Below are positions 12,126 to 37,194 of a stretch of 37,194 nucleotides of DNA, one piece after another. Made by a program: the position numbers and the translations under genes. The notes below the pieces were generated by a model. The model did no database searches. It had not been told where the DNA came from and saw only the letters and a program-made list of their open reading frames with translations. Source of the DNA: Flavobacteriales bacterium (lineage in GTDB: Bacteria > Bacteroidota > Bacteroidia > Flavobacteriales_D > Crocinitomicaceae). Position 1 is the first letter of the stretch. The number at the start of each line of letters is the position of its first letter. The stretch is taken from the NCBI GenBank assembly GCA_947453795.1, contig CANGIC010000005.1, positions 1-37,194 on the forward strand, read 5' to 3'.

Positions 12126-12159
12126 AATGAAAATGGAGGCGCGAGCCTCCATTTTCATT
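12126..12159. terminator. Perfect 15-bp hairpin with GCGA tetraloop, probable bidirectional terminator between the Ter and R-M operons
   Basis: AATGAAAATGGAGGC-GCGA-GCCTCCATTTTCATT. Confidence 0.7.
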
Positions 12160-12280
12160 ATATACTCTTATGAGAACATTAGGAATAATATTAGCAGTTG
12201 TGGAACTTAAATGATAATACCGTTGCAGTTTTATTAGTTATTTCAATTATTAAAACAAAAAACACAAACGAATCACTTAA

Positions 12281-12610: not shown

Positions 12611-12617
12611 TTACACA

Positions 12618-15372: not shown

Positions 15373-15374
15373 GA

Positions 15375-18581: not shown

Positions 18582-18827
18582 ATGAAATTCGGATTTCGCA
18601 TACCATCACTAACCAAACGAATTGCAGCTCGTACTTCGGTGAAGCGTATCATTCGCCATAACCTGGGCTTTAAGGCTCCAAGGGGTATGGGCTGGCTGAC
18701 GAATCCAAAGAAAGCTGCTTACAATCGAGTTTATAATAGAACCTCAAAAGGATGTTTGGTTGTGCTGCCCATTGTAATTTCTGGATTTGCTTTTGTATTA
18801 TTTTTAATTATTAAAATACTCGTTTAA
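18582..18827 (+). CDS. Small basic protein with C-terminal TM helix, unknown function
   Basis: Starts immediately after hsdR (18581/18582) and abuts the PrsW gene; ..KAPRGMGWLTNPKKAAYNRVYNRTSKGC then a hydrophobic segment. Confidence 0.75.
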   Translation: MKFGFRIPSLTKRIAARTSVKRIIRHNLGFKAPRGMGWLTNPKKAAYNRVYNRTSKGCLVVLPIVISGFAFVLFLIIKILV

Positions 18828-20426: not shown

Positions 20427-22037
20427 TTAAATCTTCAATTGCCCCCCAGCATTAAACCTACCGGTGGCTTTTGCCTCTCCTTTGCCAACTTCGATAATCA
20501 CATCCACTTCGTGTGCATGAGTGTTTACTCCCTTGAAGCGACCTTCCTTTGTAGTATGGTAAATGAAGATGAATGAAACGCCTGGATATTGCTTGCGCAA
20601 TTCTTCAAGGTCTGTTACATCCATTCCAGCTTTTGAAACAGAATCAATGAACACAAACTGATACGGTGTTAGGTCTGACGGAATCCGGTCAGTGATATAC
20701 AGGTTTCGATGTGAAGCATTGAGCCTTTCAATTTTTTCTTTCAGCGTATAGCCGAATCCTTCTTCCACGGCACAATACAAAACCTTTCCATGATGCTCGG
20801 CCAGGTGCTTTGCAAAGTCGAGACACAGGGTTGATTTTCCGGACTTGGGTAAGCCATACACCATAGCTGAAAAGCCGACAGAGGGATCACCAATCAGCTC
20901 TCTGTATTTTCCCTGGAGACCGATCGTTTCAAAGTCCATACCTAGCAGTTCACCGGAGGGAACTACGATCGCTCCTTCCTCATCATCTTCGTAATCGGTT
21001 CCGTTTAGACTTTTTTTTTGACCGAATAAATCATCACCCACGATACCCATTAAGCCGTTGAGTTCAGCTCTGCTGATTTTCAGTGTATCTGCATTGCCGG
21101 CTACAAAGTTTTTCAGGCTTTCAAAGGCATCATTCAATCGCTTGGCGTATTTGTCGTTTTTATGAATTTTGCTTTTCTGCACAGCCTTGGTCATGCGTTC
21201 AATGAGCTTCTCAGCTCTCTCCTTCATTCCCTTTTTTCCGTTCAGGCTTACATAGGCTTTCAGCAAAGTGATGGACAGCATATTCTCCTGGCTACCGGCG
21301 ATTTCAAGGTAGCGTTTCAGGTTCTTTGCATCAATCTTAATCTCGGCCATATCGCCCATTTTCTCATAGGCTTTGATGAGCTGCTCCTGCATCAAATTGA
21401 CCTCTTTGGCATAAGGTGAATCCTTCCGGATCCTGCGCTCCAGGATGGCCTTTTGTAAGCCGGATAAAAGGTTCAATACCTGCGCCTGGGTTTTCACTTT
21501 ACCGTGCATGGAAGCATATCGCTTGATGAATTGCACATCAGTATCAATGCGCTCGATTGGTGTTGCTTCATTTTCGTCCTCATCTTCTTCAGGAACGGGT
21601 TTTGCTGTTTTTACCAATACCATTTCGTTGGTGTCAACGAAATGCTTTGCTTCCTCAATGGAATCAAATTTTTCATTGGCGAATTTTTGACCTGATTTAA
21701 TATCCCAAATGATAAACTTGGAAGATGTCGCTGATGCCGGGCGTATTTCCACCTTTAGCCCTTTGTAATTTAATCTCGGAGCTGTTTTAGGCGCAGTCTT
21801 GACAGATTTCTCTGGAATTGATTTTGCCGCCTTTGCCGGTGCATTCTTTTTGAGGTAGTCTCCGAGCTTGGAGAAATAGGCATCCACCACACGCTTGATG
21901 TTTTCGTTGGTGTTGTAAGCCGACCAGTTGTTCTGGGATGATCCCACCACCAGGTTATGTCCTTTGGAGAGGGCTTCCGGCATGGATGCCCAGTCAATGT
22001 CCTTTATTTCGGAGAAGTAGTTCTTTGTTGTAAGCAT
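20427..22037 (-). CDS. RecA/RadA-like P-loop ATPase with long N-terminal region
   Basis: VYGLPKSGKSTLCLDFAKHLAEHHGKVLYCAVEEG..FVFIDSVSKAG..SFIFIYHTTKEGRFKG. Confidence 0.8.
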   Translation of the reverse strand: MLTTKNYFSEIKDIDWASMPEALSKGHNLVVGSSQNNWSAYNTNENIKRVVDAYFSKLGDYLKKNAPAKAAKSIPEKSVKTAPKTAPRLNYKGLKVEIRPASATSSKFIIWDIKSGQKFANEKFDSIEEAKHFVDTNEMVLVKTAKPVPEEDEDENEATPIERIDTDVQFIKRYASMHGKVKTQAQVLNLLSGLQKAILERRIRKDSPYAKEVNLMQEQLIKAYEKMGDMAEIKIDAKNLKRYLEIAGSQENMLSITLLKAYVSLNGKKGMKERAEKLIERMTKAVQKSKIHKNDKYAKRLNDAFESLKNFVAGNADTLKISRAELNGLMGIVGDDLFGQKKSLNGTDYEDDEEGAIVVPSGELLGMDFETIGLQGKYRELIGDPSVGFSAMVYGLPKSGKSTLCLDFAKHLAEHHGKVLYCAVEEGFGYTLKEKIERLNASHRNLYITDRIPSDLTPYQFVFIDSVSKAGMDVTDLEELRKQYPGVSFIFIYHTTKEGRFKGVNTHAHEVDVIIEVGKGEAKATGRFNAGGQLKI

Positions 22038-22055: not shown

Positions 22056-25000
22056 TTAAAAGTCAAGTAATTCCAATTCCAGCTCCAATGCCAGGGCTTC
22101 CAGCTCCAGCTCGTTGGATACGGTTTCATCTGCCGGAACCGGTGCTGGCAGGCTCTGTTTGTATTCCAACAGGTAGTTCAGGCGGCCAAATTCCTCAGCC
22201 CGGTTGGTAGCTGTGCGGCCTTCCACCTGGAGAGCTGATTTCTTTTGCTCGATTTCGCCCCTTAATTCGCTCCAGCGAGGCGAGTTCTGCTCGCCCTGGT
22301 ATGTTTCCGCCCGAAGCTGCAAAGCGGCTTTATCGGCCTCGTATTGGCCTAAAACAGGGCTCAGGTCGCTAGTCAGGCTGTAACCCTTCGGTTTGAGGAT
22401 CGTTCGCTCGGTTTTCCGCACCTTACTCACATACTCCTTGAAGTACCCCAAATAGTACCGGTTGGAGAAATACACCCCCAGCACCGGGTAGCTATTTTCA
22501 ATTTTACGCCCCAGGGAAAGAATGTCTTTATCGGGCTGCTCAGTTCCGTTCAGCAGGGCTTCAATTTCCTCTTTGAGCTCCTTTGCCTTTTTCACCTGCT
22601 TGTTTTGAATCTCACCGTCCTCGGCTGCCTTGGGGATTTCTTTTAGAAAATCGCTGTTGAGCAGCGAGGTATGGAAAACTCGAATGGCTTCTAAACTCTT
22701 TGTTCGGTATTCGTTGTAGTCCTTGATGTCATTTTGAACTTCCTTGATGGCCTCAATAGCGGTTCCTAGTTTTCTGTATTCCCGGTTGAGCTGCTCTTTC
22801 TCCTGGTCGAAAAACATCTTTACCAAACGATCCACATCGGTAATGAGTGCAAGTTTGATTTCTTCGGGATCCAGGCTTTCCAGGTCGAGCACATTTCCCC
22901 GGTCACCACGGAACCAAATGTCATTGATGCGTGAGGTCTTTTCTTCGAGCTTTTGAAACACGAAAACATCCATGGAATCCTGGATAAGTGGCATCACAAT
23001 TCGCACATAGCTGAACTGATTGCCCTGTCGCCAAATACGCCCTTCCAGCTGACGAATGTCGGTTGGGTTCCATTCCGGATAACAGTTGTAAATCACCGTG
23101 CCTCGTTTCTGTAAGTCAATACCCTCACGGATAGTCGCTGTACCAATGATGATTTTCACCACACCGTCCAGGAACGCCTCTTTGATAGTTTCCTTTCGAG
23201 TATCGTTGATTTCAGAGGAGATGATTTCCACTTCATCAACTTTGATTTTATCATACATCACTCCACGCTGATAACCAACTTCATTCTCCAGGTATTCTTT
23301 GATGAGCGGAAAAAACTGTTTGCCTCGGTTCATGTAAATCACTTGGCCGGAAACATTTTCCTCATGCTGTTCGTGCCAGGTTTTTACAGAACGAATGCAC
23401 TCCATGACATACTGAATCTTCGGGCTTTCCTCAACAAACTCTTTGTAGTTCTCTGGTGTGCCATTCAGGATAAAGGGAGACAATGCGTTGTCCAGGCTGT
23501 ATGCTAATGCTCTAAACAAGTTGCCCATATCGAGCTTGCCCTGTGTAGATTTTTTAGCCATGGCCACAATGCCATTTTGATTTTCCCTTTGCTTGGGAGT
23601 CATGTTGATGTAGGTCAGCACTTGCTTGTCCTGCGCCAAACGAATCTTGGTATTGTTGAAGTCATACAGTAGCGGCAGGTTGATCTTCTTAGGTCGAACC
23701 ACACCGGCTTCTTCACCGGTTTTGTAAAGGATATGATTGTAGATGAGCTTTTGTAAAATCCTTCGATTGGTAAAGCTCTTAATCACTTCCTTCTCTACAA
23801 TTTCCTCTTTGTAGTTTGCTGTCCATTCCACAGTGGGAAGTACAAACAAATCAAAGAAGGTATCGAGGTTAGCAATGCCGTTATCTCGCAGCGAATCATA
23901 CGCCACAAGTGAAAGCATGGAATAAATCTCCAGCGGTGAATTGCTGAATGGAGTTGCGGTGAGAAGCATAGTATTTCGTCCAAACTTTCGCTGAATGAAA
24001 TTCAGAATCAAAAATGCTTTCTGTCCGGTTTCAGAGGTAGCTGATTGAATGTTGTAACGCTTGTTTCCGTCATCATCTGCTTTCACCTGGCTAAATACAT
24101 TTTTACAGCGGTGCGCTTCATCAATCACAGCATAATCAAAGCCCAGCACATCCACATCAGCAATGGTGTTCTTTAAGCCAATACCGATCATCTCACGGAA
24201 TTTCTGATACTCGATTTCTTTGTCCCTATGCGTTTTCTCTTTGGATTGCCCGAGCACATTTACTAGCTCCGTAAACAGCTCATCCGAAACAGAATCACCA
24301 AATCCTAATCGCTTGAATCCTTCGTAAGTCACCATGGTGATTGACTTTTCCGGTACAGCCTGGTTGATATTTATTTTGCTAACTACATCCGTTCCCAGGT
24401 TAAACCAGTCGTTCACTGTAATGCCGGTATGCGACAATACACCTGATACAAACTCACCGGTCTTTTTATCCGTGAATCCAATGATTTCATTCATCCACTT
24501 TTTGTAGGTGGGCTTGGGAACCACTACCAGTGGTCGTTTGCATTTGCCTGAATAAAGATTGTGAGCAAGATTGACAATAGCTGTCATGGTTTTTCCCACA
24601 CCCACATCAAAGGCATTGATGCCGGATCCCATGGCTTCCATAAAGGCCACACCTTCACGTTGAATGTCTGTGATTTGAAGTAACCCCGATTTGAAGCGAG
24701 CTGAACACTCAAAGCCAATCGGCACTTTGGAATAATTGATGTCGGACTGTCCGTTATAGAGACGGTTCCAGGCATAGTCTAAACGCTGCTGATCCTCGAA
24801 CGCCAATACCTCATGCAAGAATTTTGAAAAGAGCTTTTCTCCTTCGATGCGTGCGTTTGCTTTGAGTTCGGCTTTTTCCTCCTTACTCATTTTATCGTCA
24901 CGCAACGCACGATTTGCGATATAGTAATCTGCAATATCAACTGGTGAGCTTTTCTCAAAGTCGGTGTCCTGGTTGAGTGTAAAGAGCCATTTGATATAAA

Positions 25001-25727
25001 CATGTTGCAAGGTGTATTTTGCTTCACCGTCAAAGCGGATATTTATTTTCTCCCGGTCACGCTTGCGCTCAATTTTACCATTTACCTTTTTAAGTTCCTC
25101 GGCATTTTCTAGCTCCATGAATTCCTCTCGCACCTCGGTGATGTAAAAAAGATTGCCGTCTTGGGCAAAGTCGGATATGGCAGTAATAATCGGTCGTTCT
25201 TTCTCGTCAGGATTGGTAACGGATAACATCTCGGGCTTAGCATCTGCAACAGCTTTGCGGTGTTTCTCAAACACATCTTCGTCCCAATGTTTTAGAATTT
25301 CTTCCTTGTCCTTTTCAAGCTGTAATTCCCGGTCATACATATTCCCATAGGTATAGATCGGAAAGGGAAGGAGCTCTCCGGAAGTATAGTACAAAGCTCC
25401 AGCACGCACCAGGTCAAAAAGTTTTTCTTCTAGGGCTTTACCAGTTTGTTTCAGGTAATACTTCTCCCAACCTTTCATGGGTACTCCGAGCTTTCGCTTA
25501 TACCAAATCCAGGCGGTGATTTCTTCTTCAGAAATACCTTTGTTATAGCGGCTGACTACATCATCAAAAGACAAGACTTTGCCTTCGGTATCTCCCAGCC
25601 CTGAAAGCTCCTTGGCTTCCTTTAGCACACGGTCAAGAATATGCCGATTGCCTCTGATCTGAGTAGATAGATATGGATTGATTGCGCCCAATGCGCTGCT
25701 GTGGTGTATGCCTGATAAATAACTCAT
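22056..25727 (-). CDS. Large SNF2/SF2-like helicase (DarB / MTase-helicase-associated type)
   Basis: DVGVGKTMTAIVNLAHNL, VIDEAHRCKN, LLTATPFSNS, GTATIREGIDLQKRG..QLEGRIWRQGN. Confidence 0.9.
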   Translation of the reverse strand: MSYLSGIHHSSALGAINPYLSTQIRGNRHILDRVLKEAKELSGLGDTEGKVLSFDDVVSRYNKGISEEEITAWIWYKRKLGVPMKGWEKYYLKQTGKALEEKLFDLVRAGALYYTSGELLPFPIYTYGNMYDRELQLEKDKEEILKHWDEDVFEKHRKAVADAKPEMLSVTNPDEKERPIITAISDFAQDGNLFYITEVREEFMELENAEELKKVNGKIERKRDREKINIRFDGEAKYTLQHVYIKWLFTLNQDTDFEKSSPVDIADYYIANRALRDDKMSKEEKAELKANARIEGEKLFSKFLHEVLAFEDQQRLDYAWNRLYNGQSDINYSKVPIGFECSARFKSGLLQITDIQREGVAFMEAMGSGINAFDVGVGKTMTAIVNLAHNLYSGKCKRPLVVVPKPTYKKWMNEIIGFTDKKTGEFVSGVLSHTGITVNDWFNLGTDVVSKININQAVPEKSITMVTYEGFKRLGFGDSVSDELFTELVNVLGQSKEKTHRDKEIEYQKFREMIGIGLKNTIADVDVLGFDYAVIDEAHRCKNVFSQVKADDDGNKRYNIQSATSETGQKAFLILNFIQRKFGRNTMLLTATPFSNSPLEIYSMLSLVAYDSLRDNGIANLDTFFDLFVLPTVEWTANYKEEIVEKEVIKSFTNRRILQKLIYNHILYKTGEEAGVVRPKKINLPLLYDFNNTKIRLAQDKQVLTYINMTPKQRENQNGIVAMAKKSTQGKLDMGNLFRALAYSLDNALSPFILNGTPENYKEFVEESPKIQYVMECIRSVKTWHEQHEENVSGQVIYMNRGKQFFPLIKEYLENEVGYQRGVMYDKIKVDEVEIISSEINDTRKETIKEAFLDGVVKIIIGTATIREGIDLQKRGTVIYNCYPEWNPTDIRQLEGRIWRQGNQFSYVRIVMPLIQDSMDVFVFQKLEEKTSRINDIWFRGDRGNVLDLESLDPEEIKLALITDVDRLVKMFFDQEKEQLNREYRKLGTAIEAIKEVQNDIKDYNEYRTKSLEAIRVFHTSLLNSDFLKEIPKAAEDGEIQNKQVKKAKELKEEIEALLNGTEQPDKDILSLGRKIENSYPVLGVYFSNRYYLGYFKEYVSKVRKTERTILKPKGYSLTSDLSPVLGQYEADKAALQLRAETYQGEQNSPRWSELRGEIEQKKSALQVEGRTATNRAEEFGRLNYLLEYKQSLPAPVPADETVSNELELEALALELELELLDF

Positions 25728-26380
25728 AGTTCGGTCATTTGTAATTCTAATTCAAGAGCCAGTGCTTCCAGCTCCAATGTTTTTGATGATGCCTGTCCTC
25801 GGTGTGTTTTCATGAAATTCATCAGATGCAGATTTGCATCTCTGATATCCATGAAATTCACATTATCCTCGATGTAATCCCCTTTGTGGATTTGCAGATT
25901 GTAGTCCACGCCACCCTGGTAAATTCGGGCGTTGTATTCCCCATTTGTGTACTCCACATCAAAGTCGGGATCGGAAGCATCGAAGTATTTGATTGACCAT
26001 TCAAAGGGAACCGGCAGAATCAATCTATCCTCTCCAATGTGATGTCCAATCGTATTTTCAATCCAGGTGCGGTCTCCCTTGATGGATATAGGAAACTCCC
26101 TGGATGTAGTAATGATTTCCTCTCCGCATACCTTTTCCGGATGTTTGGCAAACCAGGTATTGAAGCTGCAAGCTTCCATAAGCGACAATGGGCTGTTTGG
26201 AAATTCCTTCTCCTTCATTCGGGCTTCGCTTAGCATCTCTTCCGAGGCTTTGTTTCTCATTACACCATTGCGAAGCAGTGCAATATCCGGATCATCATTT
26301 TGAGCCTGGGCAATAGCTTCCCGGAACACTTCAAGTCGTGCTCGCCAGTACATAGGAAGTTCTTGCGCATAGCTCATCAT
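25724..26380 (-). CDS. Hypothetical protein with LELEALALELEL C-terminal tail
   Basis: ORF coupled by ATGA-type overlap to the helicase gene; no family recognised. Confidence 0.75.
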   Translation of the reverse strand: MMSYAQELPMYWRARLEVFREAIAQAQNDDPDIALLRNGVMRNKASEEMLSEARMKEKEFPNSPLSLMEACSFNTWFAKHPEKVCGEEIITTSREFPISIKGDRTWIENTIGHHIGEDRLILPVPFEWSIKYFDASDPDFDVEYTNGEYNARIYQGGVDYNLQIHKGDYIEDNVNFMDIRDANLHLMNFMKTHRGQASSKTLELEALALELELQMTEL

Positions 26381-27138
26381 TAAATCATTTCAAGTTCTTG
26401 TTCAATTAAGGGTATCACCGCTGCCGGTATCATTTGATCGTGAATCACTTTACGAATAACCATTTCCTCTGCCTTGGAATAACCCTCACGGCTATGCAAT
26501 AGCTCATAGAGGTTGGGTGCGTTGGCTTCGGTTACTCGTTTGAGTTGCTTTAAGATTTCCTCACGGAGCTTCGTTTCAACCGATGAGTTCTTTATATCCG
26601 TTCCAGAAAGGCTTCTGTCACCTTCATCTGCAAATGAATAAAAGCCCTCCCTTGTCACAATTACATGATCCAGCAAAGCAATGTCGAACAGCTTCAAAGC
26701 ATCTTTCATTCTTTTGGTCAGCACACGGTCAGCTTCGCTAGGCTTTAGATTTCCGCTTGGGTGATTATGCGAAATGATGACAGCCTTTGCCAGTGTTTTC
26801 AGGGCAACGGCAGCCACGATTTCAATGTCCACCGGTGTTGAATTGATCGTGCCGGTTGAATGATGATAGTAGCCGATAATCTTGTTGGCTTGATTGAGAT
26901 ATATCGCCACAAAATGCTCTTGAACCTCAATGCCTTTGAGGATAGTATCTCGAATAAATTGATAAGCATCCCTTGAGGTTGTTACATTCCCAAAGAACAA
27001 ACGCTCTCCAGTGAAAGTGACTTCAATCTCACGAACATTCAATTCAGCGTTGAGTTCATCAAGCTGTTGCTCCAGCTCGTCAAAGCTGGCTTTGTCGTAA
27101 ACGAAATGAGGTTGGTATTGTGGTATCTTGTATGTCAT
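26380..27138 (-). CDS. radC: RadC-like JAB/MPN domain protein
   Basis: AVIISHNHPSGNLKPSEADRVLTKRMKDALKLFDIALLDHVIVTREGFYSFADEG. Confidence 0.93.
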   Translation of the reverse strand: MTYKIPQYQPHFVYDKASFDELEQQLDELNAELNVREIEVTFTGERLFFGNVTTSRDAYQFIRDTILKGIEVQEHFVAIYLNQANKIIGYYHHSTGTINSTPVDIEIVAAVALKTLAKAVIISHNHPSGNLKPSEADRVLTKRMKDALKLFDIALLDHVIVTREGFYSFADEGDRSLSGTDIKNSSVETKLREEILKQLKRVTEANAPNLYELLHSREGYSKAEEMVIRKVIHDQMIPAAVIPLIEQELEMI

Positions 27139-27902
27139 GCTGTTGCTTTTCTTCTAAATACTAAAATGTCTGTGGGTACTTGTGATGCCTTGAATACCGG
27201 TGGTAAACGATACGCATCCACGAAGTCTGCTATCTCTTGTATCTCCATTTTCTCTCCTTGATAGCTAATGCCGTTTCGCATGAAATTGCTTGAAGTCAGA
27301 TACACCAATAGCCCACCAGGGCGAAGCATCTTTAATCCGTAGTAGATGAAGAACAGTTCTATTTGGTGCATCTTCGGTTTTGGGAAATACGAGCTGTATT
27401 TGTTCTTGTATTTGCCATACGGAGGATTGCCAATGACCAGCGAAAAGGGATAACCTTCCAGCCAGGTGAGCTTGTTTTTAAGTCGTTGTGTAAACCTTGG
27501 CGGCTCCAGGAATGCAGTCTCAAAATACCCTTGGTAGATGTGTGCATCCGGATAGGTGATTTCAGCAATACGCTTGGTAACAGGATTGATTTCAAAGCCA
27601 TAACAGCGTTCTTTGAAAGGAGCCGGTGCAAAAAATCTTCCAGTGGCCAGTGAAGGCTCCAGGATGTTTCCTTTAGCGTCAAATCCATGGCGCATGGCGA
27701 GTTTCCACATCAAGTCCACGATGTATTGTGGGGTATAAAACTCATAAAGCAACCCTTCACCGGTTGCTCCTTTTGATCCTTGTCCGCCATCACCTTCATA
27801 CTGCTGGATAAATTCAATATCCTCGGCAGAATAATGCTCTCCCTTGCTCTCCTTCGCTTTGATGAAGGCCTCTATTTTCCTATTGAGTTCAAACTGATTC
27901 AT
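27135..27902 (-). CDS. N6-adenine-type DNA methyltransferase
   Basis: ..EFYTPQYIVDLMWKLA..ILEPSLATGRF..LVIGNPPYGKYKNKYSSYF.. Confidence 0.9.
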   Translation of the reverse strand: MNQFELNRKIEAFIKAKESKGEHYSAEDIEFIQQYEGDGGQGSKGATGEGLLYEFYTPQYIVDLMWKLAMRHGFDAKGNILEPSLATGRFFAPAPFKERCYGFEINPVTKRIAEITYPDAHIYQGYFETAFLEPPRFTQRLKNKLTWLEGYPFSLVIGNPPYGKYKNKYSSYFPKPKMHQIELFFIYYGLKMLRPGGLLVYLTSSNFMRNGISYQGEKMEIQEIADFVDAYRLPPVFKASQVPTDILVFRRKATA

Positions 27903-28534
27903 TTTGATTTTCTTCTTTGAATTTGAATGAACTCGGAATAGGTAATTCGTGCATTGGGATTTTTAAGTGTTACCCTTTGCTGCAATTTGCGAGGTGAGAA
28001 TATCCATAGCCAAGGCTTTTCCCTTGGGCCCAGGTAAACAACCTGAACCAGGGTGTCCTGATATTTGATTTTGACCTCTTGTGTGCTATCCTGTGCAATT
28101 CCGTGCACTTGGTAGTAATTGTCCGTGTAGGAAAATACTTTTACCGCAACGGTATCGTGAATGATGCTATCACGAAGCATAGTAATGATCCGCTTCTCGG
28201 TATTGATTGCAGTTGAGGAAACGCTCTCAGCACGCTTCGGATTAATTTTAAGATTTCGGATTTCATCGAGCAGCTTTGGATATAGTGTGCTTAACTCCTT
28301 CAATCGAAGCTGAAATACTTCATTCTCTACTGCGAGCTGTCCGGATTGCGTTTGAATCTCTTTGAGCTGCTGAACAGTCTGCCCCAGTGTTTTGCTAAGC
28401 CTGTCATTTTCCCTGGTCTGACTTCTCACCAGGCTTGTCAGTTTGATAGCCAGCAGGAAAAACAGAATTGCGAATGCGCAAAGCGCTATCGTCCTCGATG
28501 TTTTGCTCTTGAGTATTTGAATCAGATAGTTCAT
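27899..28534 (-). CDS. Membrane-anchored coiled-coil protein (Rz/spanin-like candidate)
   Basis: N-terminal TM (TIALCAFAILFFLLAIKL) followed by a long coiled coil; located in the lysis-like neighbourhood. Confidence 0.65.
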   Translation of the reverse strand: MNYLIQILKSKTSRTIALCAFAILFFLLAIKLTSLVRSQTRENDRLSKTLGQTVQQLKEIQTQSGQLAVENEVFQLRLKELSTLYPKLLDEIRNLKINPKRAESVSSTAINTEKRIITMLRDSIIHDTVAVKVFSYTDNYYQVHGIAQDSTQEVKIKYQDTLVQVVYLGPREKPWLWIFSPRKLQQRVTLKNPNARITYSEFIQIQRRKSK

Positions 28535-28706
28535 ATCCGGATGGCCTTTTGGTTTGTGCCCAGATGTAGGCAGATAAAATGGTCATGATTCCAGCTATGC
28601 TTGTTGTGGCTACAACTTCCATTTTCATGATGGTAGCCATGATGGTTATTCCGCCCAGGAACAAGGCTGCGATCACGGTGAGCTTCAGTCGTGTTTTGGT
28701 ATTCAT
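28404..28706 (-). CDS. Small membrane protein, holin-like candidate
   Basis: MNTKTRLKLTVIAALFLGGITIMATIMKMEVVATTSIAGIMTILSAYIWAQTKR: two hydrophobic segments. Overlaps the next gene out of frame by 131 nt. Confidence 0.6.
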   Translation of the reverse strand: MNTKTRLKLTVIAALFLGGITIMATIMKMEVVATTSIAGIMTILSAYIWAQTKRPSGYELSDSNTQEQNIEDDSALRIRNSVFPAGYQTDKPGEKSDQGK

Positions 28707-28733: not shown

Positions 28734-29012
28734 TTACATAGGGTAATATTCCCAATTACCGCCTTTGCAGATTTGTGAACTAAATCTTCTTTCCGTACCA
28801 ATGCCGATGCGAAAATTCATGTCCTGATCCAGGTTTGCTATGTCCTGAACCCAGTATATCCATGTGCCTTCAATACGAATGGCATAAGCTCCTTTCTCCA
28901 GCACTGGTGGCTGAAAATTGACTGGACTGTTGAAGGTTTTTTCACCTGCAATGGATTGTTGCGTAGTGGTATCGACAACACCTTCTAATTGCTTTGAGTG
29001 TATCTTATCCAT
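28734..29012 (-). CDS. Small spike/fibre-like protein
   Basis: From ATG 29012 (MDKIHSKQLEGVVDTTTQQSIAGEKTFNSPVNF..): SIAGEKTF-type repeats are typical of phage fibre/spike proteins. Confidence 0.6.
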   Translation of the reverse strand: MDKIHSKQLEGVVDTTTQQSIAGEKTFNSPVNFQPPVLEKGAYAIRIEGTWIYWVQDIANLDQDMNFRIGIGTERRFSSQICKGGNWEYYPM

Positions 29013-29017
29013 GGTGA

Positions 29018-29380
29018 TTAGTAATTGTAGCAAACGACAATGGTGTCGGTTACTTCAGTGATATATGGTACATCAAATGTTACGATGTTAGATCCTTGCT
29101 GTGGGTTGACATTATTTAGAAAAACACCATTGAAAAACACCTGAACACTATCCGGATCATTGACAGAATATGTCAAACTCAAAGTAATGGGTGCTCGGTC
29201 TTTGGATTCGAGGTTAGTGAATACCTCACGAGCATTATTGGTATTGCTCAATCCGGCTATTATTTCTTTGATCTGAGCTATTTCAGTTTGTGCTGCAATA
29301 GCTGTATCAAGTGCTTTAGGAATCTGCGCAAGTTCTTTTGCGAGATTCTCAATCTGTTTAATTTTTACAAAGTCTCCCAT
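29018..29380 (-). CDS. Small fibre/spike-like protein (coiled coil plus beta domain)
   Basis: N-terminal helical AKELAQIPKALDTAIAAQTEIAQIKEII then beta-rich SLTYSVNDPDSVQVFFNGVFLN.. Confidence 0.6.
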   Translation of the reverse strand: MGDFVKIKQIENLAKELAQIPKALDTAIAAQTEIAQIKEIIAGLSNTNNAREVFTNLESKDRAPITLSLTYSVNDPDSVQVFFNGVFLNNVNPQQGSNIVTFDVPYITEVTDTIVVCYNY

Positions 29381-29382
29381 GA

Positions 29383-29781
29383 TTATATGATTTGTAGGTA
29401 TTTCACCAGTATTACATCCGTAGTTTCCAAGTTGAATGAGCCGTGCCAGTAGAGCTTCGTTCCGTCTGTATGAAAGTCCTTATCGGTTCCATATTGATAC
29501 AACACGCCATTTATTGAGAAGAACAAGGCCTTGCCATCAATACTTAAAGCAAACGGAAAGTTGTTTCCGGTTTTTGGGGAGTATGTAAGCTGGACTTGAT
29601 TCCATTTCAAAGTTGGCACTGTGCCATCGCCGCCATCAGAGCCCACATAGGAACTGATGCGATACACTTCATTGTGAACGATGATCTCATCATTGACAGG
29701 ATCACCCAAGATCTCTAGGACTTCCTTTGTAGAGAAAGCCTTGGCTTCGCCTGTGCGCAGATGTCGTAATGTGAATCCCAT
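29383..29781 (-). CDS. Beta-rich small structural/fibre-like protein
   Basis: ORF in a tight operon; ..FALSIDGKALFFSINGVLYQYGTDKDFHTDGTKLYWHG..: receptor-binding/spike-like composition. Confidence 0.6.
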   Translation of the reverse strand: MGFTLRHLRTGEAKAFSTKEVLEILGDPVNDEIIVHNEVYRISSYVGSDGGDGTVPTLKWNQVQLTYSPKTGNNFPFALSIDGKALFFSINGVLYQYGTDKDFHTDGTKLYWHGSFNLETTDVILVKYLQII

Positions 29782-29894
29782 TGTTTAATTCTTCGTCTTT
29801 TTGTTGTTCAGCTGCCTCCATAACCATCTTCCTCCAAAAAACAGCAATGCTGCTCCAGCCAGACTGATACCCCCTTTGGCAGCTAGTTGAGGGG

Positions 29895-30365
29895 TTATGT
29901 CAAGGCTTTTTTTTTAACGGTATCTATGATGCGTTCATAGAGATTGATAATGGCGCTGCGATAGCCTTCACGGCTGTCGCCATTTGCTTCGCTGATATAG
30001 GGCGAATAAGCAATGCGCTGTGCATAGGTCTTATAGTCCTGACCGGCAGCGTGTGCCGATTTGTACTTACTGGAGATAAGCCTCGCAAAATCATAAAAGC
30101 TATCCTGTGGTGTCTTATACACTCGGAATTTCAGCTTGTATTTGTTCTGTGCTTGGTAGATATTTCCATCCCAATATTCATTCTTCGATCCACCGGCAGT
30201 GATGCCGAAATAGTTGTTGCTCTTGGTAGCCAAGCCGGAGGTTCCCCAGCCACTTTCATGGGCTCCCTGAGCCAGGATCACCATAGGATCCATATTGTAT
30301 TTCAGTCCGGCAGCCTTGGCATACTGAAAGTTGTTTACCACATAATTTTCACTCTTTGTGCTCAT
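29895..30365 (-). CDS. Glucosaminidase / FlgJ-like muramidase (endolysin-like); possible -1 frame extension to 29785
   Basis: ..MDPMVILAQGAHESGWGTSGLATKSNNYFGITAGGS..YDFARLISS..: glycoside hydrolase 73-like signature. A9 run at 29907-29915 just before the stop. Confidence 0.88.
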   Translation of the reverse strand: MSTKSENYVVNNFQYAKAAGLKYNMDPMVILAQGAHESGWGTSGLATKSNNYFGITAGGSKNEYWDGNIYQAQNKYKLKFRVYKTPQDSFYDFARLISSKYKSAHAAGQDYKTYAQRIAYSPYISEANGDSREGYRSAIINLYERIIDTVKKKALT

Positions 30366-31438
30366 GGTCTTATCTCTTTAATGAAGCGGGCATTTACCCA
30401 GCGTTCGGTATTGTCAACTGTTTTGAATTTGTAAAACCGATCCTTGCCGGTGTCCATAGTCATAATCAATAGCCCTAGCAATGTGTTTCGGTCAGCGTTT
30501 GCAATGGGTTGCAACCTTTCATTCAACACTTGCACAAAATGGGTGGTAATGAGTTTGGAAGCATTGACTGGGATGCCTTTAACCGTTTTATCCTTTGAAG
30601 GTGGTGCATCGAAATAGTCGAGTGGCTTCATCCAGGGCGTAGAGTTCACCGTAGCCGGATAGCGATCAAACATGGGTTTGTAGTAATCGAAAATCTCCAC
30701 ATAATTGGAAGATGCGCTTACCCAAAAAGTGAATTTCTTTTTGTTGAATGCTTTGAATGCAGCCGGAGCTTTTTCGCCTCTCACCACATAACCGACTTCA
30801 ATGAATTTCACATTGTTCACTTCATCGAAATGCTGGTTGCCTGTCGCATATCCGATAAACTCACCGGCCTTTGCCGTGCGAATGATGTTCTTTTCAGAAA
30901 ACACTTCGTAAAATGCTCCATGGTTGGAAGCATCCGGAGAGCTGCGAATGGTAACGGCTTTTTTGGCTACGACCAATTGTGACTTCTTTGCAAAAGTGAC
31001 TGGAGGTGCAGAGCCTTTCTTAGTTGATTTGCCAGGATTGGAACTAACTAGTGTAAGAAATTTAGAATAATCCTCAGCAGAGAGTTCTCTTTGTAGATCG
31101 TCCAGTAAGTTAGACTGATACAGATCTCGGTAATTCTTCGATACTTCATCCAGGTCTGAAATCTGACGGGCTGTATCTAAAATGAGCTGCTCGTTTGTAC
31201 CGTCTGAACTCATCATCCAGGACACACCGCTTCGATTCATGGCGTTGCGAAGTGTCATGGCTTGTCTTACAGAAGGCTTATCATCGGTTTGAGCTTGTGC
31301 AGCCGTTTTATTGATGTCACCAATGATTTTTTTGCCAAAGCGATATGCCAGGTAAACACCACCAACGACCAAAAGACCGTTGATAATCTTGCCCCGGTTA
31401 TCGGAAACTACTTCTATGACCTTCTCTTTAATCGGCAT
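30362..31438 (-). CDS. Membrane-anchored structural-like protein with helical repeat and SH3-like C-terminal region
   Basis: N-terminal TM IINGLLVVGGVYLAYRFGKKI; LDTARQISDLDEVSKNYRDLYQSNLLDDLQRELSAEDYSKFL annexin-repeat-like; VTIRSSPDASNHGAFYEVF SH3-like. Confidence 0.7.
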   Translation of the reverse strand: MPIKEKVIEVVSDNRGKIINGLLVVGGVYLAYRFGKKIIGDINKTAAQAQTDDKPSVRQAMTLRNAMNRSGVSWMMSSDGTNEQLILDTARQISDLDEVSKNYRDLYQSNLLDDLQRELSAEDYSKFLTLVSSNPGKSTKKGSAPPVTFAKKSQLVVAKKAVTIRSSPDASNHGAFYEVFSEKNIIRTAKAGEFIGYATGNQHFDEVNNVKFIEVGYVVRGEKAPAAFKAFNKKKFTFWVSASSNYVEIFDYYKPMFDRYPATVNSTPWMKPLDYFDAPPSKDKTVKGIPVNASKLITTHFVQVLNERLQPIANADRNTLLGLLIMTMDTGKDRFYKFKTVDNTERWVNARFIKEIRP

Positions 31439-31441
31439 GGC

Positions 31442-31615
31442 TTAAATCATTGAGCGTATTTTTAACAGCACTAATGGGTTATCTATTTTCTTTGAAATGG
31501 AAACCAACTCCTGCGGCTTGAATGTCTTTACAATGGCTTCAATGGCCTGTTGCACTTGCTTGGCTTCAATATCATTGCGCACTGGCACATTCACGGTGAC
31601 ATTATTGTTATGCAT
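31442..31615 (-). CDS. Small hypothetical protein
   Basis: From the internal ATG (MHNNNVTVNVPVRNDIEAKQVQQAIEAIVK..), overlapping the upstream stop by a few nt. The longer ORF start lies deep inside the upstream gene. Confidence 0.55.
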   Translation of the reverse strand: MHNNNVTVNVPVRNDIEAKQVQQAIEAIVKTFKPQELVSISKKIDNPLVLLKIRSMI

Positions 31616-32441
31616 TGGTTTCTGTTGCTTTTTGTGTTGATACTTGGGTAATGAATTTGAGAATGCGTTGGATATTCTCCTTGTCTTTCTCCAGCTCAAT
31701 AAACAAGAGGTAAAGCGTACCAAGCTCCTGATTGCTCAGCGTAGTGCTGAAATCGTTTATCAGGTTAATGATGCTTTGTCTTTGGTCATTTTGCTGCTCC
31801 TTGCTTTCATCCTTTTCAGTGGAATTGAGCTCCTTTTTTTCCTTGTCTTTTTCTTCGGTTCCAGCTAAAAAGCTCATGGCTGTACCTACCGGTGAATTGG
31901 TAAAGAACTTCGCTAGTCCGGGAAGTGCCATGCCAATAATGTTTGAGTAGTACTCCACTTGCTTTTTAGCATCGAGGGTGGTTTGCAAGTCGGTGACCTG
32001 GAATTGCAGCTCTTCGTTGAGTTCCTTTTGCTGTTGCAGTTCTTGTTGAAGCTGCTCCAAGGTCTTCTGCCTCTCCATTTCGTTGAACTTGCGTTGAACC
32101 ATATCATTGATTTCAACTTCGCCAAGCCCTTGGAAACCGCTGGTTGTTCGGTTGTGTATTTCTTCCTCAATCTCGTTTACATCGAAGGTCTTTGCCCAAA
32201 TGAGAATGCCTTTCTCCGTGTCTTTAAATTCAACCTTTACTTTGTCAGGACTTTCGCTTTTCTCATAGCTTCTGATGAGCTGCGAGAAGGCTGATACATC
32301 GGCCTGTTCAATGGCATTGAGTTTCTTTCCGTTTCTGTAAAAAGTGGCGTTGAATACCACAGCACTATATCCCTGCTTCGGAAAGGTTTTAATCATCTTC
32401 CGGCAGACTTCGATAAGGTGGTATATTCTTCGTTTGCTCAC
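31608..32441 (-). CDS. Coiled-coil protein with GFQGLGE motif
   Basis: Long ORF; long coiled coil MERQKTLEQLQQELQQQKELNEELQFQVTDLQ; charged C-terminal region. Confidence 0.75.
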   Translation of the reverse strand: MSKRRIYHLIEVCRKMIKTFPKQGYSAVVFNATFYRNGKKLNAIEQADVSAFSQLIRSYEKSESPDKVKVEFKDTEKGILIWAKTFDVNEIEEEIHNRTTSGFQGLGEVEINDMVQRKFNEMERQKTLEQLQQELQQQKELNEELQFQVTDLQTTLDAKKQVEYYSNIIGMALPGLAKFFTNSPVGTAMSFLAGTEEKDKEKKELNSTEKDESKEQQNDQRQSIINLINDFSTTLSNQELGTLYLLFIELEKDKENIQRILKFITQVSTQKATETNA

Positions 32442-32761
32442 TTAATTACAATTTGAATAAACTCCATCGTGGTGTCCACTTCTAGCGGAAGCGGAAACTC
32501 AACAGAGATGGTTCCTGAATAGTCCTCAATACCTTCCAGCGACTGCACATCAAGCGGAATTCGCCTTGCCCTTGAATCGGAATGAATCAATGTGCCTGGT
32601 GGAAGCGCTGCGGCATTCGTTAGAAACAGCAATTCGTTGTAAGCATAGAACTGATAATGGCTTGTACCCACCGGCAACTCAATTCTGTAGAACTGCTGAA
32701 GTGCCGGTTCAATTTGCCGCTGCTTCAGCTGCGACTGGATGAATACAAGATGATCGTACAT
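32438..32761 (-). CDS. Small beta-rich protein, virion-structural candidate
   Basis: Tight operonic ORF; beta-rich composition. Confidence 0.6.
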   Translation of the reverse strand: MYDHLVFIQSQLKQRQIEPALQQFYRIELPVGTSHYQFYAYNELLFLTNAAALPPGTLIHSDSRARRIPLDVQSLEGIEDYSGTISVEFPLPLEVDTTMEFIQIVIK

Positions 32762-33170
32762 GCTGTTTGCTGTTTTGTAGTTCGCATTTCAAATAGATGG
32801 CTACCTGATAGGGACGAAACCATTCCTTGATGTCTATCAATGGGTATGGATTCTTTTGCGTGTCCAGGTAAAACCCGGTCACCAACTGTCCTGATTCTAG
32901 TGGAATGTTTAACTCCTGATACTCCGGCAACTGATCCACCTGGAATTCATAGCCAACAAAATCGTTGACATACAGCTGCTTTCGAGAGTTGAACTCAAGC
33001 GCTACAAGTCCGATTTCCGGTATATCCACATCCGATCCAATTCCCTTGACATGACGAACTACATATCCTAAACAGCGTCCGTAATTCGAAGGCAAACGAT
33101 GGCGTATTTCAACCACCTGTTCGTACTCTGTTACATCAAGCTTTATGATATGGTAGCGAATCTTTGTCAT
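32709..33170 (-). CDS. Beta-rich protein, virion-structural candidate
   Basis: Tight operonic ORF; 53-nt overlap with the next gene. Confidence 0.65.
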   Translation of the reverse strand: MTKIRYHIIKLDVTEYEQVVEIRHRLPSNYGRCLGYVVRHVKGIGSDVDIPEIGLVALEFNSRKQLYVNDFVGYEFQVDQLPEYQELNIPLESGQLVTGFYLDTQKNPYPLIDIKEWFRPYQVAIYLKCELQNSKQHVRSSCIHPVAAEAAAN

Positions 33171-33589
33171 GGGTGTTTTTCCGGATGCTTTTCTCCGTGC
33201 TTTTCAGGATGGTGTATTTCATTCACCAGCCACAGATACAGTTTTACATCGTATGGATATAAAGCGGGATTCGTGCCTCTTGGATCAGTATATCTGCCTT
33301 CCACAGATGAGCCACCGGCTTCAATATGTTCCTCGAAACGAAAGAACTTATTGTTAGGAGCTACCTGGTTTCCGCAGGTGATCATTCTCACTTCATGTGC
33401 ATCGTCAAACACATCCAGTCCATTAATCTTCAAGCCAATCGTTGCGCCAACAAGCACCTGGTCACTCGGCACGGAAGCAAACACGCCCCGAACTTTAGCA
33501 TAGAGCTTGTCCGTTTCGGCAGCAAATCTTACCGAGTCACCTGGTGCATTAATCCTTATTCGGATCTGTTGGAACTTATGATTCTTCAT
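33167..33589 (-). CDS. Beta-rich protein with His-rich (PEKH) tail, virion-structural candidate
   Basis: Operonic ORF; ends HHPEKHGEKHPEKHP. Confidence 0.65.
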   Translation of the reverse strand: MKNHKFQQIRIRINAPGDSVRFAAETDKLYAKVRGVFASVPSDQVLVGATIGLKINGLDVFDDAHEVRMITCGNQVAPNNKFFRFEEHIEAGGSSVEGRYTDPRGTNPALYPYDVKLYLWLVNEIHHPEKHGEKHPEKHP

Positions 33590-33608
33590 GGCTCAGAGCT
33601 TTCGCTGT

Positions 33609-34313
33609 TTATGATTTGATGACTGATGTGCCACGAAGGATGGCTTTCAAATAAGACTTTTCAGGTGCGTTGCTTCCCCATTCTAGGTTGAACTCAATGG
33701 ACTGCTGATCCTTGATAACTTTTGGGTTGTCCAGGACATACAATCCTTTGAAGATGTCTTTACCTTCAGTGAAGAACACCTCGTTGGATGTGTTGGGCAC
33801 AAGCACAGTTCCGTTGGCTTTGAACTCAAACTCTCCGTTGCGCACATAGTCTGGAATGACATTGAACGCCACATCGGGAGCTGTTTCTGTTCCTTCGGCA
33901 ACACCGGCCAACAACTGCATTCCGTATAACAGGAAGAAGTTTCCTTTTTCCAATTTTCCGGATGAGATGTTTGAGATACCGACAACTTTGTTGTCATCAT
34001 CTTTGAACATCTTAATCACTTTGCTACCGGTGATTGATTTTACCACATACAGTGCGGTATCAACTGCTTGCAAGGATTGGTTTGCAAGTCCCTTTTGAAT
34101 CTCCGAAGGAAGCATGTGAATTCGTTTTTCAAATTCGGCACGACTGCGTGAGCTGGCTGTGGCGGTTTGAATGCGAGATTGCATTTGCATCTTGCGGAAG
34201 AACTTCTTTTTTGCAGGCATAGGCGCTGCATCCAAGGCCTCTAAAAAGTCATCTTCGTTGATGGCTCCCAAAAGGTTGTGTTCGCTTTGTTCGATTTCTC
34301 CGAGCGTAAACAT
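33609..34313 (-). CDS. Structural-like protein (major capsid/coat candidate by position and composition)
   Basis: Helical N-terminal region then beta-rich C-terminal half (..FLLYGMQLLAGVAEG..YVRNGEFEFKANGTVLVPNTSNEVFFTEG..LYVLDNPKVIKDQQSIEFNLEWG..). No homology recognised. Confidence 0.6.
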   Translation of the reverse strand: MFTLGEIEQSEHNLLGAINEDDFLEALDAAPMPAKKKFFRKMQMQSRIQTATASSRSRAEFEKRIHMLPSEIQKGLANQSLQAVDTALYVVKSITGSKVIKMFKDDDNKVVGISNISSGKLEKGNFFLLYGMQLLAGVAEGTETAPDVAFNVIPDYVRNGEFEFKANGTVLVPNTSNEVFFTEGKDIFKGLYVLDNPKVIKDQQSIEFNLEWGSNAPEKSYLKAILRGTSVIKS

Positions 34314-34347
34314 GATTATTGATTTTTAAGGTTGAACATTGATTGAA

Positions 34348-34905
34348 TTACATGATTTCGATGAAGGCTGGTTCGCTTTCGCTTCCAGATGCTCCGATGT
34401 TGCGTTCAGGAATGTCGAATTGTTCCTGAGCATCCATTGGGTTTGGATAAGGCATATACACAGCGTTGAGAGCCGGTAAATCCGGGTTGTAGCGTTCTAC
34501 GGCTAGTTGTACCGGTTCACGAAATACCTTAACCGGAGTGGACATATCCGAATCATCGTTGCCAAGACCACTGAAGTCAGCCAGTCCGGCCAACAGGTCT
34601 TTTTTCAAAATGACCTTCACGCCACTGAGTACCCCGGCAGCACCGACACCGGTTGCAAGGAGCTTCATGTTTTTTTCTTTGAGCATCACCGCTCCGGCAG
34701 CACCAGCTGCGATAAGTACTACTGGACGAGCCATTGCTTTAGCATTGAAGCCGGTTTCAGTTCCGTCCACTTTCAATACCTTGTCAATGAGCCTGCCGCC
34801 CACAGAACCCAGAACGACACCACTTCCGAGCATCGCCAGGTTTTTTACTTCTTCCATTACAGCCTGGCTGCTGAGTTTGGAATTGGTTTTTCGTTGAGTT
34901 GCCAT
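34348..34905 (-). CDS. Small multi-TM glycine-rich membrane protein with DFSGLGNDD motif
   Basis: Hydrophobic segments (NLAMLGSGVVLGSVGGRLI, PVVLIAAGAAGAVML, LLATGVGAAGVLSGV). Confidence 0.7.
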   Translation of the reverse strand: MATQRKTNSKLSSQAVMEEVKNLAMLGSGVVLGSVGGRLIDKVLKVDGTETGFNAKAMARPVVLIAAGAAGAVMLKEKNMKLLATGVGAAGVLSGVKVILKKDLLAGLADFSGLGNDDSDMSTPVKVFREPVQLAVERYNPDLPALNAVYMPYPNPMDAQEQFDIPERNIGASGSESEPAFIEIM

Positions 34906-34927
34906 GTTTATTGATTTAATTGATTGC

Positions 34928-36706
34928 TTATAAAAGTTTTACTGCTTTCACAGGTAATTGCTTGCTGCCTTTACTGTGTTTCTTTTTGGAATGATTTTTC
35001 TTCCTGCGTGAATAGCCAGATAGGGAAGTAGATTTCTTTGGCTTTGATACCATTCGATAGATACCATAAGCCAACAGACCGCCTCCGATAACAGCTGGCA
35101 CCGGATTCTTTTTGATGAATTCCATGACACCGCCTCCGGAACCTGTTGCTGCTGCATCATCAGTTCCTGTGCTTGCAGACTTTTGCGCAGATGCATCACC
35201 GCCGGATTCTGTGCCGCTTTCAGATCCTGCCTTTTGCAGAGCTTCAGCAGCACCTGGATCATTGGCCATTTCCTTTGCTAAATCATTGGGATCGACATTC
35301 TCGTTTTTGTTGAGTAGTCCTGAATCCTTTAATATCTTGATAGCCGCGACAATGATTGGGGTTGCAGCTGCTAGCGTTGCGGCCGTTACCGGTTCGCCCA
35401 GACCCTGAAAATCTTCTTCGATGAATCCGTCTAGGTTGCCAGCTTTGCCTTTCAGAATAGCGTTGCGCAAAGCATCACGCTTTCCCTGAAGTTTGTCTGC
35501 AAACAGGCGCTCTACTTTGGCAAGAGCATCCTTGCTTTTGTTCCATTGCGCTTCATTGATACCTTTTGCGGCAGCTTGTTCTTTGGTTGCATAGCCCCAT
35601 TTGAGTTTAGCAGCCATTTTACCCAAGTTGGTTTTCATGGCTACCAGAAATCCGCCACGGGCAGCAATAGAGACCGGATTGAAGCGGACAACCGCTTTAC
35701 CGACTTCCTTTAGGCCTTTACCAACTTTCTGAACTGCGTTCTTTATACCCTTGAAAAAACCTTTCTTTCCTGGGCCGTTGAGTGCATACTCATCATGATC
35801 GAACACATCATCACCCAAACCGGAAAATCCGTTTCGGAAGTTGAGTTGTTCCTCGTTCTTTTCCAGCACAGCCAATGCTTCTTCACGCTTGTCGGTGTAG
35901 AAATACTGAATGGCATAGTCAAGCATTTTGATAAGTGCCTGCGGATCGTCAATGGAACTAACCATTTTCGGATTTTCCGCAATGCTTTTTCGGGTAGCTA
36001 CCAAGTGACGATAGATGCTGTCCAAATCTTGTTTTGCAGAAGTAGCTCCTAAATCTGAGCCTGATAAACCTGAACCCATTACTACGGTGTCCAGGTCGCT
36101 ATTTAAGCCGCTGAGCACAGCGACATTGATTCCATTTAAACTCATGGTATAGTCCATTTTATCTGTGAAAGGTTTCTCGTATCCATAGGGGGAGACTACC
36201 GCATCTATATTCTTATATCCACCTCTGTTATCCGGAACAATCACATACACATGCTGCCAGTGATCGGCAGAATAGCGAGTGATGCGAAAGCTGTGAGGGA
36301 TTTTTAGATTGGTTAGAATACTGCTGATGAAAATGCTCATGCAGTCACAATCAACACCGGTTCTGCGCTCTGCCCAGGAACGAGCAGGTCTGCGAAGCTG
36401 CTCCAGTCCACGCTTGTCGAGCTTATACTGGATGTTGTTGTAAACGAAGTCGTAGATAGACTTGCAGGTTTCTTCCAGTGTGCTTCGTTTGAGCACAGGA
36501 GCAATGCGAGCTGTATCGGTGAGGTACTTGTGTACCACCTTTTCCATTAGCTCCACTGTATCGCTTACTTCACCGTCTTTGATGATGATGCGATCTCGTT
36601 CATCCGGCTTCGGGAAGTAACGGTCATACTGATTACCGTCACGTATCCGCCTTTGTCCGGATGTGATTTCAAAATCGGGCGATATGGTACGTGCCAGCTG
36701 CATCAC
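34928..36706 (-). CDS. Transglutaminase-fold (papain-like) protein with basic amphipathic segment, two GLG motifs and C-terminal TM
   Basis: Transglutaminase-like C/H/D: RRTGVDCDCMSIF, DHWQHVYV, NIDAVVSPYG; TM VPAVIGGGLLAYGIYRMV; basic tail. Confidence 0.8.
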   Translation of the reverse strand: MMQLARTISPDFEITSGQRRIRDGNQYDRYFPKPDERDRIIIKDGEVSDTVELMEKVVHKYLTDTARIAPVLKRSTLEETCKSIYDFVYNNIQYKLDKRGLEQLRRPARSWAERRTGVDCDCMSIFISSILTNLKIPHSFRITRYSADHWQHVYVIVPDNRGGYKNIDAVVSPYGYEKPFTDKMDYTMSLNGINVAVLSGLNSDLDTVVMGSGLSGSDLGATSAKQDLDSIYRHLVATRKSIAENPKMVSSIDDPQALIKMLDYAIQYFYTDKREEALAVLEKNEEQLNFRNGFSGLGDDVFDHDEYALNGPGKKGFFKGIKNAVQKVGKGLKEVGKAVVRFNPVSIAARGGFLVAMKTNLGKMAAKLKWGYATKEQAAAKGINEAQWNKSKDALAKVERLFADKLQGKRDALRNAILKGKAGNLDGFIEEDFQGLGEPVTAATLAAATPIIVAAIKILKDSGLLNKNENVDPNDLAKEMANDPGAAEALQKAGSESGTESGGDASAQKSASTGTDDAAATGSGGGVMEFIKKNPVPAVIGGGLLAYGIYRMVSKPKKSTSLSGYSRRKKNHSKKKHSKGSKQLPVKAVKLL

Positions 36707-37191
36707 AATACTTTCTGTGGCGTTGATTGATAAAAGATGCCGTTGGCGTAAGTCGAAAAAGTCATCTCGACAGGAATGCCGAGAATCTGCCCAATATCGT
36801 TGGTGCTTCCTGGTTTGAAAGCTGCGATGAGCTGAGGGATTTTCTTAAGGATACCGGTTACAAAAGTTCCAATTGTAGTCCAGCCGATCACCAGCTCAAT
36901 CGTGTCAATTTGCGACACATTCAGCGGTTCAATGGTGATGGTTTTATTCTCCGAGTTTGATTGCGAAAGAAGTTTGCCGTTGGTGGAAAGCGTAACAACC
37001 GGTTTTGTGATTTTTACTGAATCCTTCGTAGGGTTATTGATGGCAACCTCAGTACGAAAAGAAATACCTTGAAGGGTAACTTTATGGATTCGGGGATTGA
37101 CCAAATTGGTAGAAATGGAATCGCCCACATTTTTCATGCGGAGCAATTTGATAAGCCCATAGGCTCCCAAACCAATTAGTCCTATGCCCAA
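36703..37191 (-). CDS. N-terminally membrane-anchored LEA14/WHy-like beta-sandwich protein
   Basis: N-terminal TM GLIGLGAYGLIKLL; ..NPRIHKVTLQGISFRTEVAINNPTKDSVKITKPVVTLSTNGKLLSQS..: LEA_2-type pattern. Confidence 0.7.
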   Translation of the reverse strand: MGIGLIGLGAYGLIKLLRMKNVGDSISTNLVNPRIHKVTLQGISFRTEVAINNPTKDSVKITKPVVTLSTNGKLLSQSNSENKTITIEPLNVSQIDTIELVIGWTTIGTFVTGILKKIPQLIAAFKPGSTNDIGQILGIPVEMTFSTYANGIFYQSTPQKVL

Positions 37192-37194
37192 AAC

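Follow-up and report, generated by a model that had tools for sequence, protein, structure and literature searches.

Relationship to SSIP-1 and other tailless viruses

Salisaeta icosahedral phage 1 (SSIP-1) is an isolated icosahedral phage with an internal membrane, two types of capsid protein (T=49) and a 44-kb circular double-stranded DNA (dsDNA) genome (PMC6260650, PMC6356626). According to a review, its genome is hardly like anything in GenBank (PMC6356626), and its family assignment has been left open (PMC6260650). Here, we analyse one entire contig of a draft Bacteroidota genome, 37,194 bases in length (the window). The window is very probably a provirus, complete but for a small part, of a temperate dsDNA phage of the SSIP-1 type that is tailless and icosahedral and has an internal membrane and a single-jelly-roll capsid.

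The link to SSIP-1 is carried by two proteins: a 536 amino acid (aa) protein consisting of an N-terminal region and an AAA/RecA-like ATPase domain (20427..22037; like all late-module genes named below, on the minus strand), and a 592-aa transglutaminase/papain-like protein with a hydrophobic C-terminus (34928..36706). The hidden Markov model (HMM) profiles of the two families match SSIP-1 gp40 (E = 1.6e-18) and gp34 (E = 5.7e-17), respectively, both of which are annotated as virion (structural) proteins. Only the ATPase led to SSIP-1 directly (tblastn, 4e-8); phage tblastn with the transglutaminase-like and the capsid proteins returned nothing. The match to gp34 is specific, since generic Pfam transglutaminases reach only 0.02-0.09 with the 592-aa protein. 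Its residues Cys120, His152 and Asp168 are each 99% conserved, and the cysteine and histidine are retained in gp34. With relatives from Persicobacter, a simple blastp search finds SSIP-1 gp34, gp40 and gp43 (lowest E-values 1e-7, 2e-14 and 2e-5). This points to a possible relationship with the giant helicase/methyltransferase gp43 (likewise annotated as structural), which the family HMMs of the window match only weakly. A 185-aa protein with two transmembrane segments (34348..34905) adjoins the capsid genes, as does the two-transmembrane protein gp44 of SSIP-1, and is a possible gp44 counterpart (E = 0.035). Judged by the two shared virion proteins, the element would belong to the SSIP-1 group, with which it also has in common a dsDNA genome on the 40-kb scale with integrase and lysin.

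Several features separate this lineage from SSIP-1. The capsid proteins of the two cannot be aligned: in SSIP-1, gp45 and gp46 (210-211 aa) are probably paralogous capsid proteins (hhalign probability 95), whereas this lineage usually has one 234-aa protein plus small 140/153-aa paralogues. An N-terminal region fused to the ATPase, a recurrent GLG motif and defence cargo likewise set it apart, and most of its hosts are freshwater, soil or marine bacteria, while the host of SSIP-1 is a halophile.

The first-pass annotation of this DNA had proposed an internal-membrane tailless phage on the model of tectiviruses, corticoviruses or FLiP. The kind of phage is supported by the two homologues of SSIP-1 virion proteins, but the nearest relative is SSIP-1, probably a single-jelly-roll virus, and not the groups named. 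Tectiviridae, Corticoviridae and Finnlakeviridae (PRD1, PM2, FLiP) share the general tailless internal-membrane logic but have double-jelly-roll capsid proteins and genomes of 9-15 kb; the 234-aa protein, with about 77 mostly helical residues and one eight-stranded domain, has space for one jelly roll only, against two in PRD1, PM2 and FLiP. Sphaerolipoviridae and Matsushitaviridae (HHIV-2, P23-77) are likewise tailless with an internal membrane and possess vertical single jelly rolls, and a virion protein of HHIV-2 (6h82_b) bears a weak likeness to the model of the 140-aa protein; however, they use two dedicated capsid proteins, and no sequence match to them was found. Portogloboviridae (SPV1) have the single-jelly-roll capsid whose solved fold comes closest to the 234-aa model, but SPV1 is an archaeal virus for which neither sequence similarity nor shared genes were found.

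Predicted capsid proteins

The first-pass annotation had named a jelly-roll capsid protein among the small beta-rich proteins as its key prediction, and structure modelling agrees. The 234-aa protein (33609..34313) was modelled by AlphaFold from an alignment of 25 sequences with 34-86% identity to the protein of the window. The model consists of N-terminal helices and an eight-stranded domain (residues 81-233), with a predicted local distance difference test (pLDDT) score of 73.7 and a predicted template modelling (TM) score, pTM, of 0.64. Among solved structures, the capsid protein of SPV1, a single jelly roll, ranks first in both probability and TM-score (6oj0; probability 1.00, TM 0.41/0.52, E = 1.7e-3). 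Further matches include PBCV-1, iridovirus, circovirus, picornavirus and the FLiP penton, as well as a copper monooxygenase. On this medium-confidence model, the 234-aa protein is predicted to be a single-jelly-roll major capsid protein. The top matches in BFVD include unnamed viral proteins, one of which (I1ZBH9, 211 aa) shares its length with SSIP-1 gp46 but also with gp35, such that length is its only link to an SSIP-1 protein. No sequence or profile link of the 234-aa family to PDB chains was found. In Longitalea luteola (L125), two 234-aa homologues of 239 and 207 aa stand in tandem and may be a capsid protein pair like that of SSIP-1.

The 140-aa protein (33167..33589), a candidate penton or minor capsid protein, gives a confident AF2 model of a beta-sandwich (pLDDT 89.9). 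Foldseek matches of this model include HHIV-2, SPV1 and plant-virus coats; the best E-values belong to the lysozyme inhibitor PliG and to TasA. The neighbouring 153-aa protein (32709..33170) is its paralogue (hhalign probability 98.6, E = 1.4e-15, on position-defined alignments of the two families). Next to it lies a 107-aa beta-rich protein (32438..32761), present in 72-74 of about 80 loci. None of the 234-, 140-, 153- and 107-aa proteins has a convincing Pfam or PHROG match.

Extent and distribution of the module

The late module is a single compact minus-strand operon running from 37,191 down to 20,427, with a GC content of about 44%, in which all named genes are present as tightly packed open reading frames (ORFs); the plus-strand half of the window is mostly at about 34-40%. 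The first-pass annotation had placed a virion module at 28,734-37,191. This upstream part was rightly described, including its endolysin-like enzyme and its fibre/spike-like and membrane proteins, but the unit is larger and reaches 20,427 with the helicase, methylase and ATPase genes, which, together with RadC, continue the late gene run in close relatives too. The packaging ATPase, for which the first-pass annotation had suggested a search beyond 37.2 kb, therefore need not lie there: the 536-aa protein is a candidate already inside the module.

A search of 85,000 species genomes with the 25-sequence alignment gives 133 loci with the 234-aa protein. Those listed, 80 in number, are titled Bacteroidota or a subgroup thereof, except for one bacterium without such a title and one record titled Saccharospirillaceae. 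The latter (L151), named after a proteobacterial family, has a contig that matches one from the window's own order (G111:C9) and is probably mislabelled. The order transglutaminase, 185-aa protein, 234-aa protein, one to three small beta proteins (140/153), 107-aa protein and coiled coil is the same in 56 of the 60 loci with enough flanking sequence; the module is therefore more than a chance arrangement. The element occurs in 26 of 399 genomes of the window's order and in 3 of 393 genomes sampled across the phylum. Crocinitomix and Fluviicola metagenome-assembled genomes are among its carriers, and the host of the window is accordingly probably a flavobacterium of the Crocinitomicaceae type. 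Two different copies share a genome bin in several cases (G799:C19 and G799:C157; L105/L107; L115/L116; L131/L133).

Viral datasets hold almost none of these loci. The 234-aa alignment finds 1 of 2.9 million contigs in IMG/VR, where scans with single proteins found nothing, and the protein was not found in INPHARED phages. We also found no report of such proviruses in the openly accessible literature. The gene module of SSIP-1 appears here as a syntenic provirus lineage with at least 133 loci in Bacteroidota, of which present virus catalogues show next to nothing. Carriers are available in culture, namely Chitinophagaceae bacterium LGM1, Taibaiella soli, Longitalea luteola and Persicobacter psychrovividus, and induction, virion structure and the proteolytic maturation proposed below are therefore directly testable.

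Mobility and alternative readings

Relatives show the traits of a temperate element, with integrases or large serine recombinases and tRNA-linked borders. Serine recombinase genes have their ends within the tRNA genes of four amino acids (Arg, His, Met and Leu), and tRNA-Ser has a tyrosine integrase beside it. In five integrations (G030, G091, G111, G035 and Taibaiella soli; L041, L037, L045, L042 and L167), the large serine recombinase gene continues at its 3' end through a tRNA gene, in antisense to it; several of these recombinases end in G(L/F/I)EPxx-type peptides, and G030 and G091 harbor near-identical elements at tRNA-His. Long direct repeats at the element borders were not found. The virion module is also carried by two plasmids of Persicobacter psychrovividus, pPP10 (53 kb) and pPP1 (1.07 Mb) (L173, L178, L179). 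On pPP10, which is typed as non-mobilizable, it lies beside ParA, ParB and replication genes, making this plasmid a possible phage-plasmid.

Tail genes were sought with Pfam and PHROG among the 99 proteins of six complete or nearly complete relatives, considering the best 25 of 73 PHROG families and the best 25 of 29 Pfam families. Among the families listed are endolysins, amidases, integrases, invertase-type recombinases, regulators and methylases, but none for terminase, portal or tail assembly, and the single match to a 'tail protein with endopeptidase domain' accompanies a lysin domain. The families listed for the window itself include no terminase, portal, HK97 capsid or tape measure; the first-pass annotation had likewise recognised no terminase, portal, tape-measure or tail protein. 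Those listed for the relatives show no such genes just beyond the window either, where their presence would have spoken against a tailless phage.

A number of points weigh against a tailless provirus. The particles and their induction are predicted from genes. The 234-aa model has a mean pLDDT of only 74 (pTM 0.64) and TM-scores to known capsids of only 0.4-0.5, with an E-value of 1.7e-3 for SPV1, and its family has no sequence or profile similarity to SSIP-1 gp45 or gp46. The AAA domain is RecA/AAA_24-like and occurs also in other phages, tailed or transposable, for which reason the ATPase is only a candidate for packaging. Finally, the absence of tail genes in the six relatives refers to the 25 of 73 PHROG and 25 of 29 Pfam families considered.

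Three other readings were weighed. The best of them, which we nevertheless hold to be improbable, is a particle of the gene-transfer-agent, bacteriocin-like or nanocompartment kind that descends from such a virus but has been domesticated and no longer replicates: a virion has yet to be observed, and the element is common in genomes yet almost absent from viral datasets. However, the recombinases are intact, and tRNA borders, a primase-helicase block and a plasmid-borne relative are present; exchangeable lysins and defence cargo, the patchy spread (26 of 399 genomes in the order) and two copies in one genome add to these, and all are traits of a mobile virus. Less probable still is a conjugative or mobilisable element, or a plasmid, whose genes would build a cell-surface or secretion apparatus in place of a virion. 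Mobile elements of Bacteroidota carry RadC and helicase-methylase genes, the window has an RteC-like gene, and the Persicobacter copy resides on a plasmid, but neither a relaxase nor a type IV secretion family is among the families listed for the window and the six relatives, pPP10 is typed as non-mobilizable, and endolysins and homologues of SSIP-1 virion proteins are present. Least probable of all is a tailed prophage with terminase and tail genes that have diverged past recognition or lie off the contig. In its favour are the weak fibre-like matches (phrog_1795, BppL_N) and the lysis genes, which are common in tailed phages; against it are complete or nearly complete relatives in chromosomes, in which no terminase, portal or tape measure was recognised among the families listed, and two matches to SSIP-1 virion proteins. 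Both the tailed-prophage and the conjugative reading were rejected, as their hallmark genes were not found among the families listed.

Putative assembly and maturation

For the tailless provirus, the genes suggest the following course. After induction, the element would be replicated by its own primase-helicase. The late operon would then provide a shell of single-jelly-roll 234-aa subunits, with the small beta-barrel proteins of 140, 153 and 107 aa as minor or vertex proteins and the 592-, 185-, 163- and 358-aa proteins anchored in a membrane. The virion ATPase may package the DNA, the helicase-methylase would be co-packaged in the virion, and lysis would be brought about by the glucosaminidase together with the holin/spanin-like proteins. 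From these genes we infer that particles form and that they contain a membrane.

The transglutaminase-like domain may in addition cut virion precursors at a recurrent motif. Five copies of the string [hydrophobic]-[SQNTE]-G-L-G-[DENQ], or in narrower form [hydrophobic]-[SQNE]-G-L-G-[DEN], are present in late proteins of the window, against 0.04 expected (shuffles, maximum 2 in 2000): twice in the 592-aa protein (residues 295 and 434) and once each in the 185-aa protein (FSGLGN, residue 112), a 277-aa coiled-coil protein (FQGLGE, residue 104; 31608..32441) and a 1223-aa SNF2-type helicase (ELSGLGD, residue 42; 22056..25727). These four proteins are otherwise unrelated, and the string is absent from the early and cargo proteins of the window. 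Measured against flanking proteins over the loci, the transglutaminase protein is about 38-fold and the coiled coil about 51-fold enriched in a similar string, odds that overstate significance as the sequences are related and not independent; the 234-aa protein lacks this string. The ATPase has a related LNG sequence between its N-terminal region and its AAA domain, and on pPP10 its counterpart consists of two separate genes. SSIP-1 gp34 and gp36 contain the similar strings RGMGE and QGMGD.

The simplest reading of these sequences is that the motif is a putative cleavage site for the transglutaminase-fold domain; alternatively, it could be a virion-targeting tag. As a cleavage site, it would resemble the consensus of the adenovirus protease. 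A broader proposal, to which we give less than an even chance, is that a largely unrecognised temperate tailless lineage of family rank or higher pervades Bacteroidota, and that its virion is matured by a transglutaminase-fold cysteine protease, a convergent analogue of the adenovirus type, which cuts the precursors of several proteins (membrane, scaffold, helicase, ATPase) at the shared [hydrophobic]-x-G-L-G site.

Further late genes, early block and cargo

The remaining late genes complete the operon. At the contig end lies an immunoglobulin (Ig)-like protein with an N-terminal transmembrane segment (36703..37194), which extends past the end. The coiled-coil ORF is overlapped by that of a short conserved protein (31442..31723; 57-60 aa in relatives), whose true start is therefore probably internal. 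A 358-aa protein with a hydrophobic N-terminus (30362..31438), kept in 67 of about 80 loci, is a candidate membrane-associated virion protein. The endolysin is a glucosaminidase (29895..30365; PF01832, E = 5.7e-23), in whose place relatives have an amidase or other lysins. It is followed by a 132-aa fibre-associated protein (29383..29781, conserved in 28 loci) and two fibre/spike-like proteins of 120 aa (29018..29380; phrog_1795 tail fibre, 3.7e-4; counterpart of 305 aa in many relatives) and 99 aa (28734..29033; weak BppL_N, 0.0013). Holin/Rz-like genes exist as claimed, but at 27,899-28,706, outside the coordinates originally assigned to the module: a 100-aa holin-like protein with two transmembrane segments (28404..28706) and a 211-aa DUF6549 (Rz-like) protein with one transmembrane segment in a spanin-like position (27899..28534; PF20186, 4.7e-42). 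Between these and the SNF2-type helicase are an N6-adenine DNA methylase (27135..27902; PF07669, PF02384), a RadC-like JAB protein (26380..27138; PF04002, 4e-38) and a 218-aa conserved protein of the helicase-methylase unit (25724..26380).

The plus strand begins with a conserved replication/early block (263..4290; Pfam) that encodes proteins of 175 aa, 141 aa (RteC-like) and 101 aa (HTH_17) and a 691-aa Toprim primase-helicase. The stretch 263-4290 is 94% identical in DNA to the relative L186, where it stands beside the same late module. Exchangeable cargo follows on the same strand (4422..18581): ter genes (TerD, TerY, PP2C, kinase, TerC), an HTH gene and type I restriction-modification genes (M, S, R). 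An 81-aa conserved gene, also on the plus strand, marks the junction between cargo and late module (18582..18827; 71-79% identity in L185 and L186). Other cargo takes the place of 4422-18581 in L184-L187; L186 has methylases, GmrSD and SIR2 genes where the window has ter and type I restriction genes, and L184 has a Lamassu LmuB-like gene at the cargo position. The lineage also bears exchangeable defence islands. In four relatives, conserved replication block or junction genes lie past the ATPase, with exchangeable cargo in between. Directly outside the replication block of L188 is a 414-aa gene whose sequence suggests a tyrosine recombinase; the window's own integrase is off the contig. The whole contig would accordingly be one provirus that lacks no more than the end with the integrase and, on the opposite side, one small gene.

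A short imperfect repeat (ACTAATGTTGCxGAGCAAC) is found at 120-200 of the window, near the contig end ahead of the replication block. In one sub-lineage, the interval between ATPase and recombinase contains a patatin-like phospholipase gene (L041, 12543-13721), a candidate membrane-active gene.

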